From: Desulfarculus baarsii DSM 2075
Lineage (GTDB): Bacteria; Desulfobacterota; Desulfarculia; Desulfarculales; Desulfarculaceae
Direction of reading: 5' to 3'
Length of the DNA stretch: 64,000 bases
Assembly: GCF_000143965.1 (NCBI RefSeq)
Contig: NC_014365.1
Coordinates: 2,941,501-3,005,500 of the forward strand
Shown: positions 1 through 57,328 of the stretch, piece by piece
Position numbering within the stretch: position 1 is the first letter of the stretch
Layout: every line of letters begins with the position of its first letter
Position numbers and translations under genes: made by a program
The notes under the pieces: generated by a model
Seen by the model: the letters and a program-made list of their open reading frames with translations, nothing else
The model's database searches: none
What the model was told of the DNA's origin: nothing

Positions 1-310
1 CGGCCGCGTGGACCCGCTGGCCGTGGCGGTGATGGCCGAGTCCGGGGTGGACATCTCGGGCCAGCGCTCCAAGGACGTCGAGCAATTCATTGGCCAAAGC
101 TGGGACTGGGTGGTGACTCTCTGCGACAACGCCCGCGAGTCGTGCCCGTTTTTCCCCGGCCCGGCGCGGCGCGTCCACCGCGGCTTTGACGATCCGCCGT
201 TTTTGGCCCAAAGCGCCAAAAACGAGGACGAGGCCCTGGCCATCTACCGCCGCGTGCGCGACGAGATCAAGGCCATGGTCCTGGGCCTGCCCGGCTCCTT
301 GCAAGACTGA
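1..310 (+). CDS. arsC: arsenate reductase ArsC, LMW-PTP type, 3' part only
   Basis: This is the C-terminal part of a low-molecular-weight-phosphatase-fold arsenate reductase, which reduces arsenate to arsenite in the cytoplasm. The reading frame is open at the left edge of the window, so the N-terminal P-loop with the catalytic Cys is not visible. What is seen is the family's typical [20 protein letters not shown] segment followed by [10 protein letters not shown], where the two cysteines six residues apart match the relay cysteines of thioredoxin-coupled ArsC enzymes. It lies 26 bp upstream of the arsenite exporter gene on the same strand, which supports the assignment. Another LMW protein tyrosine phosphatase is possible but would not normally carry the second cysteine. 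Confidence 0.88.
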
Positions 311-336
311 AAACCGCAAAGCAACGGGAGGCGAAC

Positions 337-1428
337 ATGGCCGCCGGGGCCGGGGGCAAGCTGTCGTTTCTGGATCGCTATCTGACGCTGTGGATCTTCC
401 TGGCCATGGCCGTGGGCGTGGGTCTTGGCTATTGGCTGCCGGGGATCAAGCGGGCGGTGGATTATTTCTCGGTGGGCACGACCAACATCCCCATCGCCAT
501 CGGCTTGATTCTGATGATGTATCCGCCGCTGGCCAAGGTCCGCTACGAGCGCCTGGGCCAGGTCTTTAGCGACGGCAAGATTCTGGCCCTGTCGCTTGCG
601 CAAAACTGGCTCATCGGCCCGGCGCTGATGTTTCTGCTGGCCATCGCCTTTCTTTCGGGCCACCACGACTACATGGTCGGGCTGATCCTCATCGGCCTGG
701 CCCGCTGCATCGCCATGGTCATTGTCTGGAACGACCTGGCCGGAGGCGACCGCGAATACTGCGCGGGGCTGGTGGCCTTCAACAGCGTCTTTCAGGTGCT
801 GTTCTTTTCGGTCTACGCCTGGTTTTTCATCACCTTGCTGCCAGGCTGGCTGGGCCTGGGCGGCGTGGCCGTGGATATCTCCATGGGCCAGATCGCCCAG
901 AGCGTGTTCATTTATCTGGGCCTGCCCTTCATCGCCGGCCTGGCCAGCCGCCTCATCGGCCTGCGCCTGAAGGGCCACGATTGGTACGAGCGCGTCTTTA
1001 TCCCGCGCATCAGCCCCATCACCCTGACGGCGCTGCTTTTTACGATCGTGGTGATGTTTTCGCTCAAGGGCCAATACATCGTGCGGCTGCCCTTGGACGT
1101 GCTGCGGGTGGCCCTGCCGCTGTGCGTCTATTTTCTGGTGATGTTTCTGGTCAGTTTCTGGCTTGCGCTGAAGGCCAAGGCCACCTACGAGCAGGCGGCC
1201 ACCCTCTCCTTCACCGCCGCCAGCAACAACTTCGAGCTGGCCATCGCCGTGGCCGTGGCCGTGTTCGGTCTCGACAGCGGCCAGGCCTTCGCGGCGGTGA
1301 TCGGCCCTTTGGTGGAGGTGCCGGTGCTCATCGGCCTGGTGCGGGTGGCCTTGTGGCTGAGAGGGCGCTATTTCCCCCACGAAAAACTCTCGCCGACCGG
1401 GGTCTGCCATGTCTCGTGCAAGCCCTGA
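337..1428 (+). CDS. acr3: arsenite efflux permease, ACR3 family
   Basis: Integral membrane arsenite exporter of 363 residues, a normal length for the ACR3 family, with about ten hydrophobic segments. The N-terminal region ([18 protein letters not shown] near residues 16-33) and the segment [12 protein letters not shown] are typical of ACR3. It pumps out arsenite made by the upstream arsC product. An AACGGGAGG ribosome binding site precedes the ATG. The operon appears to continue into the thioredoxin gene 61 bp downstream. The family is clear; metalloid specificity (As versus Sb) cannot be read from sequence alone. Confidence 0.93.
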
Positions 1429-1489
1429 GCGCCGGCGAATAACCCCTTGACATCCGCGGCAACTTGACGACTTTGCAAAAGGCGCACAA

Positions 1490-1873
1490 ATGAAACGCAT
1501 CTCTTTGGCCGGCCTGATCATCGCCGCCAGTTTCGTCCTGATCTCCTGCCAGGCGGGCAACGCCCAGGACACGAAAAAATATCTGAGCCCCGGCATGGTC
1601 ACCCTGGTCGACCTGGGGGCCGACAAGTGCATCCCCTGCAAGATGATGAAGCCCATCCTCGAGGCGCTGAAGGTCCAATACCAAGGCAAGGCGGCGGTGG
1701 TGTTCATCGACGTGTGGGAAAACCAGGCCGCGGCCAAGGATTTTGGCGTCAGGGTCATCCCCACCCAGATCTTTTTCGACGCCGCCGGCCAGGAAGTCCA
1801 TCGCCACGAGGGCTTTCTGGACAAAAAAAGCATCGAGGACCAGTTGGCCAAAATGGGCGTGAAGGCCCGCTAG
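1490..1873 (+). CDS. thioredoxin-fold lipoprotein (CIPC active site)
   Basis: Exported thioredoxin-like protein of 127 residues. The N-terminus is a signal peptide ending in LISC, a plausible lipobox, so the mature protein should be tethered on the outer face of the inner membrane. The active site reads DKCIPCKMMKP, a CxxC with IP rather than the GP of classical thioredoxin, and the cis-proline region VIPTQIFF is present. The next gene encodes a CcdA-type membrane thiol transporter, which is the usual electron source for such periplasmic thioredoxins. I infer a role in reducing thiols of exported partners, perhaps the cytochrome encoded two genes downstream. A TTGACA hexamer at 1447-1452 has no good -10 partner. 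Confidence 0.88.
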   Translation: MKRISLAGLIIAASFVLISCQAGNAQDTKKYLSPGMVTLVDLGADKCIPCKMMKPILEALKVQYQGKAAVVFIDVWENQAAAKDFGVRVIPTQIFFDAAGQEVHRHEGFLDKKSIEDQLAKMGVKAR

Positions 1874-1898
1874 CGCCGGCCAAACCAGGAGCGAGGCG

Positions 1899-2603
1899 AT
1901 GGAAGAGCTTTTCCTTACCCTGCACGGCTGGCTGACCGCCGGCGGCGCGGCCGCCATGGTCGGGGCCTTTGTGTGGGGTGTGGTCAGCGTGGCGCTGAGC
2001 CCCTGCCACCTGGCCTCGATCCCGCTGATCGTGGGCTACGTGGCCGGCCAGGAAAAGGCCGTGCGCCCCGGCCAGGGCGTGTATTATTCGCTGTCGTTCA
2101 CGGCGGGGCTGTTTGTCTCCATCGCCCTGGTGGGGCTGATCTGCTCGTTGCTGGGCCTGATGCTGGGCGATATCGGCCCATATTGGACCATCGCCGTGGG
2201 CGCGGTTTTGCTGCTGGTGGCCCTGGACATGCTGGGCCTGCGGGCCATGTCCATGTCGGGCGGGCTGATGGCCAAGCTCAAGGTCAGGGGGCTGGGTGGG
2301 GCGCTGGTCCTGGGCCTGGCCTACGGCGTGCTCAGCGGGTCGTGCACCTTTGGTTTTTTGGCGCCGATCATGGCCGTGATCACCGTGCAGCAAGACTTGG
2401 CCGCGGGGCTGGTGTTGATCGGGCTGTTCGGCCTGGGCCACGCCCTGCCCATCGCCGTGGCCGGCAGTTCCACGGCGCTGGTGAGCGGCGTGCTGGAAAA
2501 CAGCGCCTTCCAGAGGGCCAGCCTGTGGTTCAAACGGGTGGCCGGGGTCGGCGTGGGTCTGCTGGGCGTTTACTTCATCGCCTCGCCGTTTTTCGGGGCC
2601 TAG
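1899..2603 (+). CDS. ccdA: CcdA/DsbD-type transmembrane thiol-electron transporter
   Basis: Polytopic membrane protein of 234 residues, a typical length for CcdA, with six hydrophobic segments. CcdA-family proteins move reducing equivalents from cytoplasmic thioredoxin to periplasmic thiol proteins through a membrane-embedded cysteine pair. Candidate cysteines are seen in SPCHLASIP near residue 38 and SGSCTFGFLAP near residue 150. It lies 25 bp after the thioredoxin gene and 4 bp before the multiheme cytochrome gene, so the three are probably cotranscribed and act together in thiol supply for cytochrome maturation or repair. Confidence 0.87.
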   Translation: MEELFLTLHGWLTAGGAAAMVGAFVWGVVSVALSPCHLASIPLIVGYVAGQEKAVRPGQGVYYSLSFTAGLFVSIALVGLICSLLGLMLGDIGPYWTIAVGAVLLLVALDMLGLRAMSMSGGLMAKLKVRGLGGALVLGLAYGVLSGSCTFGFLAPIMAVITVQQDLAAGLVLIGLFGLGHALPIAVAGSSTALVSGVLENSAFQRASLWFKRVAGVGVGLLGVYFIASPFFGA

Positions 2604-2607
2604 GGTC

Positions 2608-3819
2608 ATGGCCGCCAAGCGTCGCAACGCCCTCGCGTTCCGCGTCCTGGCCGTGGCCCTGGCCGTGGCCGCCGGCCAGGGCCTGGCCGCCTCCGGGGAG
2701 CCGTCCGCCCTGGAGGCCATGATCGCCCGCCACGATTCCGGCCGCTGCCAAAGCTGTCACCCGGAGATCTACGAGCAGTGGGCGCGCTCGCAGCACGCCC
2801 GGCCGTTGATGGGCCTGGGCGGATTCAACTTCATGGCCAAGTATCTGGCCGAGGGGCCCTTTGCCGTGGCCCGGCCCGAGGACGCCACCAGGGCCAATTT
2901 CCCCTGCGCCAAGTGCCACCTGCCCCAGTTGCTCACCGCCGATGATCAGGCGGCCAGCGAGTTGGCCCAGGTCGTCTGGCGCGACGACAAGGCGGTCATC
3001 GCCAAACTGGGCATCGGTTGCCTGGTCTGCCACCAAGACAAAGCCGTGGTCCATCACCCGCCACGGGCCGAGACGATCTACGCGCCCCAGGCCCAGGATG
3101 GCCCCCACGAAGGGGCCGTGGCCAGCCTGGAGCGCAGCCCTTTCATGGCCTCACCGGCCTTTTGCGGCCAGTGCCACGGCTTGGGGCCCAATTTCGAGTT
3201 CAGCCCGCCGGTGCAGTGCGCCACGCTCTACGGCAGCTACCTGCACGCCTACGTGGCTGGTGGTGGGACATCCACTTGCATCGATTGCCATATGCAAGGG
3301 GCCGATCACGAATTCAAACCCAATTTCGCCGACCGGCCGGCCACGGCCAAGCTCTACCAGGCGGCCTTGCCCATGGAGGCAAGCGTCCTGCCCCTGGTTT
3401 TCCAACCAGGCGACCGGCCGCGTCAGGCGCTCGTGGCCCTGGAGGTCGTCATCGCCAACAACGCCGGCCATCGCCTGCCCGACGGCTGACCGTCGCGGGC
3501 GCAAGCGGTCCTGGAGGCGACCGCCACCACCGACGACGGCCGACGGCTCTTGGAGGCCAGGCGCGTGTACATGCCCCAATGCACCGACTCGCTGGGGCCC
3601 AAGATGGTCTTGGGGCCCGACAAAAAACTGGGCATCGTCCGCGACACATCCTTCCAGCCCTTCCGGCCGACCAGCGAGCGCTTCGAGATCGTCCTCGACC
3701 AGCCGGCCAAAACGCTGGCCATCTCGTTGCGTCTGGTCTACAGCCTGCGGCCCGGCGACGAGATGGTCATCCACCACTGGCGGCGCGACTTGGACGTGAG
3801 GGCCGTCTCGCCCAAGTAA
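2608..3819 (+). CDS. multiheme c-type cytochrome with probable selenocysteine (UGA at 3487), ExtKL/cytochrome c554-like
   Basis: Read through the in-frame TGA at 3487-3489, this is a 403-residue exported multiheme cytochrome. It has an N-terminal signal peptide and five CxxCH heme motifs at about residues 47-51, 100-104, 138-142, 186-190 and 224-228, with further His residues as possible axial ligands. The TGA falls at residue 294 in the context GHRLPDG-(UGA)-PSRAQAVLE. The same frame then stays open for 109 codons of well-behaved protein sequence (residues 295-403) with GC-rich codon use like the first part. A stem-loop suited to a bacterial SECIS follows the TGA. From memory, the Geobacter ExtKL family of multiheme cytochromes has selenoprotein members; I could not check that here. 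The alternative is a nonsense mutation that splits the gene. Confidence 0.72.
3505..3524 (+). promoter_or_regulatory. candidate bacterial SECIS stem-loop after UGA 3487
   Basis: A six-base-pair stem (3505-3510 with 3519-3524) carries an eight-base apical loop, CTGGAGGC. The loop can tighten by a C-G pair with one bulged C to give the pentaloop UGGAG with G in second position. The loop starts 21 nt after the UGA, inside the spacing known for bacterial SECIS elements. This is a hand fold and was not computed. Confidence 0.5.
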
Positions 3820-57208: not shown

Positions 57209-57328
57209 GGGCTCTGGGCGAGTTGGACACCGCGCAACGGACGGTCGTGAACCCCGTCAGGTCCGGAAGGAAGCAGCGGTAAGCAATGCGGTTCGTGTCG
57301 CGGATCGTTCCAGCCACGCCCAGGGCCC
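57209..57328 (+). ncRNA. ffs: signal recognition particle RNA (4.5S type)
   Basis: The conserved domain IV core GTCAGGTCCGGAAGGAAGCA, which binds Ffh and SRP receptor, lies at about 57258-57277. The ends close as GGGCTCTGGGCG (57209-57220) with CGCCCAGGGCCC (57317-57328), with one G-T pair, giving an RNA of about 120 nt. The length is typical of the small bacterial SRP RNA. No clear promoter was found between it and the HU terminator. Confidence 0.92.

Follow-up and report, generated by a model that had tools for sequence, protein, structure and literature searches.

Positions 2608-3819 of the window (the whole 64,000-nucleotide stretch of the Desulfarculus baarsii DSM 2075 genome analysed here) hold one real gene in which an in-frame UGA is almost certainly read as selenocysteine (Sec). 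With a confidence close to certainty, its product is a Sec-containing member of the ExtKL/MccSep family. This family of five-heme selenoprotein cytochromes is already described (listed in PMC13188914), and the modest new lead lies in the clade to which the D. baarsii protein belongs, an ExtKL branch that sits inside arsenic-resistance (ars) gene clusters. The explanation that we consider probable for the locus as a whole is that of an ExtKL/MccSep selenoprotein acting as a Sec-bearing periplasmic reductase in an ars operon. Features of the locus are collected in Table 1.

Table 1. Features of the ars-linked ExtKL locus, in window coordinates.
Feature	Position	Strand	Basis
ArsC-like (LMWPc) gene, 3' part	1..310	+	Pfam LMWPc
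ACR3 arsenite efflux transporter	337..1428	+	TIGR00832, 462.7 bits
Thioredoxin, CIPC motif, apparent lipobox (LISC), probably periplasmic	1490..1873	+	PF00085, 55.7 bits; lipobox by eye
CcdA/DsbD-type membrane electron carrier	1899..2603	+	PF02683, 50 bits; ends 4 nt before ExtKL start
ExtKL-type pentaheme cytochrome selenoprotein gene, full read-through	2608..3819	+	403 aa, Sec294; ATG 2608, TAA 3817-3819
Probable signal peptide, residues 1-27	2608..2688	+	By eye only; helix 2-23 in model
Heme motif 1, CQSCH, residues 47-51	2746..2760	+	Cys/Cys/His invariant, 66-sequence alignment
Heme motif 2, CAKCH, residues 100-104	2905..2919	+	Invariant, 66-sequence alignment
Heme motif 3, CLVCH, residues 138-142	3019..3033	+	Invariant, 66-sequence alignment
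Heme motif 4, CGQCH, residues 186-190	3163..3177	+	Invariant, 66-sequence alignment
Heme motif 5, CIDCH, residues 224-228	3277..3291	+	Invariant, 66-sequence alignment
Cys204, invariant non-heme cysteine (QCATLYGS), candidate Sec294 partner	3217..3219	+	Alignments
Invariant His288 in the AGHRLPDG-U-P motif; probably a distal heme ligand	3469..3471	+	Aligns with 5ze8 His
In-frame TGA as selenocysteine, residue 294	3487..3489	+	TGA in 80/80 named homologues, Cys in four others
Coding part after TGA, bulk of C-terminal Ig-like domain	3490..3816	+	Model; Ig-like half of 5ze8
Bacterial SECIS-like stem-loop	3505..3524	+	Stem 3505-3510/3519-3524 (6 bp), 8-nt loop 3511-3518

One gene across an in-frame TGA

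The sequence-only reading had described a frame with five CxxCH motifs that meets a TGA at 3487 and then continues for 109 sense codons to a TAA at 3817, all of which was borne out. Since spurious ORFs of more than 200 residues are common in the GC-rich DNA around the gene, the openness of the downstream frame is itself little proof, and this part was judged real from homology. The read-through product matched NF040886, the NCBI model for "multiheme c-type cytochrome (seleno)protein ExtKL", with 422.3 bits, where the curated cut-off is 250, and aligned from residue 9 to 397 with positions 7-422 of the 423-position profile, in keeping with the ExtKL family that had been guessed. Taken separately, the part before the TGA scored 310 bits on the proper half of the profile, and the 109 residues after it scored 87 bits (E 7e-25) on the C-terminal part. 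No further ExtKL gene accompanies this one in the 3,655,731-base genome.

Purifying selection and codon-position composition both run on past the TGA. In comparisons with close relatives, dN/dS was 0.17 and 0.11 before the TGA and 0.16 and 0.11 after it. GC content by codon position was 0.70/0.50/0.86 before and 0.64/0.47/0.93 after, similar values on the two sides; DNA beyond the TAA is unlike both gene parts (0.75/0.62/0.48). The splitting of the gene that had been expected of standard gene callers holds for plain ORF callers; a dedicated model for the family is now available at NCBI. A gene cut in two by such callers is corrected here, and its Sec reading is backed by several independent lines of evidence.

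The Sec site among homologues

A scan of named genomes, mainly Thermodesulfobacteriota and Nitrospirota, found a single in-frame TGA in every one of the 80 retained loci, placed within GH..PDG-U-P wherever the motif was printed. Exactly one internal TGA was likewise found in 42 of 49 matches above the family cut-off in a phylum sample, which shares some genomes with the named-genome scan. At aligned residue 294 most homologues carry Sec (TGA) and four carry Cys (L057, L058, L060 and L061), and the sequence beyond this position is conserved. Sec and Cys thus exchange at residue 294, the pairing customarily looked for at a selenocysteine site.

Ile or Val was found to replace Sec/Cys in heme-retaining paralogues from two genomes (L058 and L028/L059). 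These are tandem ExtKL paralogues with PDS-I/V-SS at the site, which also keep Cys204; in L058, the copy beside the Ile/Val-type paralogue retains Cys.

Selenocysteine machinery and the SECIS-like stem-loop

The same genome encodes the components for Sec insertion whose presence had been proposed as a check: selA (607 bits), selB (406 bits), selD (376 bits; genome positions 3511511-3512437, L040) and tRNA-Sec (selC; 72.8 bits against a gathering threshold of 47). The selD gene contains one in-frame TGA of its own, and the encoded selenophosphate synthetase is probably itself a selenoprotein. The machinery, the TGA/Cys homologues and the downstream conservation agree with the earlier placement of Sec at residue 294 in GHRLPDG-U-PSR, and neither of the two observations named beforehand as refuting that placement was made.

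As the sequence-only reading had described, a SECIS-like stem (GCGGUC/GACCGC) begins 15 nt past the TGA, with its loop 21 nt past it. The folding energy of this region is not exceptional in the D. baarsii gene alone (z -1.0 to 0.6), and single-sequence folding was therefore set aside in favour of a comparison across the family. Across 106 distinct sequences, 94% of cells pair in register, falling to 22-57% when the register is slid, and the inner 5 bp are whole in 99 of the 106. Relative to synonymous-codon shuffles, in which every protein and its particular codon usage were left unchanged, the SECIS region gave a mean z of -1.23 (t -13, a value that overstates independence since the sequences are related), compared with -0.22 to 0.02 for five control windows taken from these genes; the D. 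baarsii gene by itself gave a z of about 0. In the four Cys homologues 2 to 5 of the 6 pairs remain, but four sequences are too few to weigh heavily. Together, these comparisons show that the stem-loop has been preserved beyond protein-coding need, a signal carried by the family and not by the single gene. At gathering thresholds, Rfam gave no match over the SECIS region of the gene; elsewhere in the window (57221-57318) it identified a bacterial small SRP RNA gene (RF00169, 62.3 bits).

Were the TGA instead a true stop, the locus would consist of a truncated pentaheme cytochrome followed by a dead or separately translated fragment, as a result of pseudogene formation or sequencing error. The 293-residue product would in that case retain all five hemes, and the stem-loop is unexceptional when this gene is taken by itself. 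Given the in-frame TGA in all 80 named homologues with Cys in others, the selection acting past the TGA, the Sec machinery in the genome, and the naming of relatives in the PDB as selenoproteins, we regard a true stop as extremely improbable.

Hemes, fold and conserved residues

An AlphaFold model built with 66 relatives (pLDDT 85.8, pTM 0.82) places the start of beta strands near residue 256, and the C-terminal domain matches Ig-like domains. The gene product is a cytochrome c that carries five hemes and, at its C-terminus, an Ig-like domain, and is probably exported to the periplasm. Outside the CxxCH motifs, His 63, 149, 167, 234 and 288 are invariant or nearly so in the 66-sequence alignment. 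These five residues suffice for five bis-His hemes, so that Sec294 would not be needed as a heme ligand, although it may still serve as one. A selenenylsulfide between Sec294 and Cys204 was also considered, and is unsupported by co-loss: Cys204, invariant in the 66-sequence alignment and retained in almost all rows of a second one, stays where Sec/Cys294 has become Ile or Val.

An ExtKL clade within arsenic-resistance clusters

Combining window positions 1-3819 with the adjoining genome stretch (L062), the gene order on the same strand is FeS-domain protein, arsC-like, arsR, arsC-like, ACR3, thioredoxin, CcdA and ExtKL, with arsR and the other arsC-like gene lying upstream of the window; the arsC-like and arsR genes gave Pfam matches to LMWPc (65 bits), HTH_5 (ArsR; 53.5 bits) and LMWPc (67.6 bits). 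ArsR, ArsC, ACR3, thioredoxin and CcdA are closely spaced on the one strand, as in an ars operon with CcdA and thioredoxin. The immediate neighbours of ExtKL comprise ars, trx, ccdA and pyrB/pyrC-like genes, and no ExtH-, ExtI-, ExtM- or ExtN-type genes (porin, multiheme cytochromes) were found among them.

The same gene set recurs around related ExtKL genes. A quick tree of 94 proteins places the D. baarsii protein within a 27-row clade (SH-aLRT 99), and ACR3 and/or thioredoxin plus CcdA lie nearby in 19 of the 22 clade members with enough flanking DNA, compared with 1 of 46 elsewhere. Among the other genes of these related ars islands are those for an ArsP-type permease and for small thioredoxins. 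Since clade members span several bacterial families, the ars linkage is not one recent event. Outside the clade, one ExtKL locus (L080, in G017) also has ACR3, thioredoxin and CcdA nearby, possibly an independent association. No link between ExtKL and arsenic, nor a cytochrome in such an operon, was reported in the literature searched, a search that did not extend to the 2025 study of selenoprotein gene neighbourhoods by Haft and Tolstoy.

We also considered that the ExtKL proteins of this clade are electron-transfer cytochromes belonging to a conduit for extracellular electrons, in line with the proposal made for Geobacter, with the ars genes incidental. Geobacter extKL lies within the extHIJKLMNOPQS cluster, beside a porin and multiheme cytochromes (PMC5877670), and cable-bacteria homologues have been discussed in the light of extracellular conduits (PMC11976967). 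Conversely, by a simple count none of the 16 long ars-clade loci contains a further ORF with at least four CxxCH motifs, and the ars linkage recurs in several bacterial families, so that a conduit role for this clade seems distinctly unlikely.

Proposed function

In the mechanism that we propose, SelB, guided by the stem-loop after the UGA, would insert Sec at residue 294 in AGHRLPDG-U-P, six residues past the invariant His288, which probably ligates heme. Sec would then be the substrate-facing residue of a reductase, with the hemes delivering electrons to it, and the adjoining lipoprotein thioredoxin and CcdA may keep Sec or Cys reduced. As the ExtKL gene lies in an ars operon in this clade, its product most likely acts in the periplasm to reduce a metalloid or chalcogen oxyanion, whether an arsenic species or selenite.

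The chances that the ExtKL protein is a reductase are, in our view, about even. No enzymatic activity of the ExtKL/MccSep family was reported in the literature searched; G. sulfurreducens ExtKL has been named a candidate selenite-reduction selenoprotein from preliminary data (PMC5877670). Some observations count against the proposed mechanism. First, the existence of heme-keeping Ile/Val paralogues suggests that the scaffold is useful without Sec or Cys. Second, ars linkage does not establish arsenic as the substrate. Third, CcdA and thioredoxin have been described in ars operons without mention of a cytochrome (PMC2963123), and so may act here independently of ExtKL. An arsenic-linked function for this ExtKL clade is put forward as tentative, at somewhat less than an even chance.

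Proteins of the CcdA type have an established part in cytochrome c biogenesis. It could be that CcdA and thioredoxin here act in cytochrome c maturation, where they would keep the thiols of the CxxCH motifs in the reduced state, and have no part in Sec or metalloid chemistry; PF02683 is named for this role, and ExtKL requires the attachment of five hemes. Against this, both proteins have been recorded in ars operons (PMC2963123), and other ExtKL clades are without CcdA or thioredoxin nearby. On balance, we consider a maturation role rather unlikely.

Returning to the Sec-bearing reductase, these ExtKL proteins may form a separate clade that is a dedicated part of Thermodesulfobacteriota arsenic-resistance islands, functioning in the periplasm as a reductase (or a binder) of an arsenic species, dependent on Sec, driven by heme and fed via CcdA and the lipoprotein thioredoxin, a scenario that we hold to be possible but slightly less than evenly balanced. 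The clade-wide tie to arsenic genes offers a lead that can be tested, both on what the ExtKL selenoproteins do, a family for which the literature searched establishes no function, and on the reason for selenocysteine in a cytochrome.

Comparison with known systems

G. sulfurreducens ExtKL (GSU2937-GSU2936) resembles the D. baarsii protein in having five hemes and a predicted Sec (PMC5877670, PMC6148476), with the in-frame TGA likewise separating the cytochrome part from the C-terminal one; the two differ in genomic context, the Geobacter genes belonging to the ext porin-cytochrome cluster and the gene described here to an arsenic-resistance operon instead.

A solved member of the same family is MccSep, deposited in the PDB as "Multiheme cytochrome c selenoprotein" (9wt8, 9wta and 9wtb; mutant U325A, 9wt9 and 9wtc), which aligns over its full length (profile E about 1e-141). 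These chains were found by sequence search only, being absent from the Foldseek list. At the Sec site the deposited sequence has a non-standard residue (X), in AGHSIPDG-X-P as compared to AGHRLPDG-U-P here, and MccSep has QCCTSY where the D. baarsii protein has QCATLY.

The same fold is shared, along almost the entire protein, with the penta-heme cytochrome c552 of Thermochromatium tepidum (5ze8; Z 21.5, 3.3 A over 304 residues, 21% identity), in which the His equivalent to His288 is conserved. Its conservation in ExtKL, MccSep and 5ze8 suggests that this His is a likely heme ligand. At the site where ExtKL has Sec or Cys, 5ze8 has Ala (HAMPTG-A-P), which suggests that Sec was introduced into a motif that the scaffold already possessed.

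With regard to its neighbourhood, the D. baarsii locus contains every element of the known ars operon with CcdA and thioredoxin (PMC2963123), namely arsR, arsC, ACR3, thioredoxin and CcdA, and differs from it in the addition of a pentaheme selenoprotein cytochrome at the operon end.
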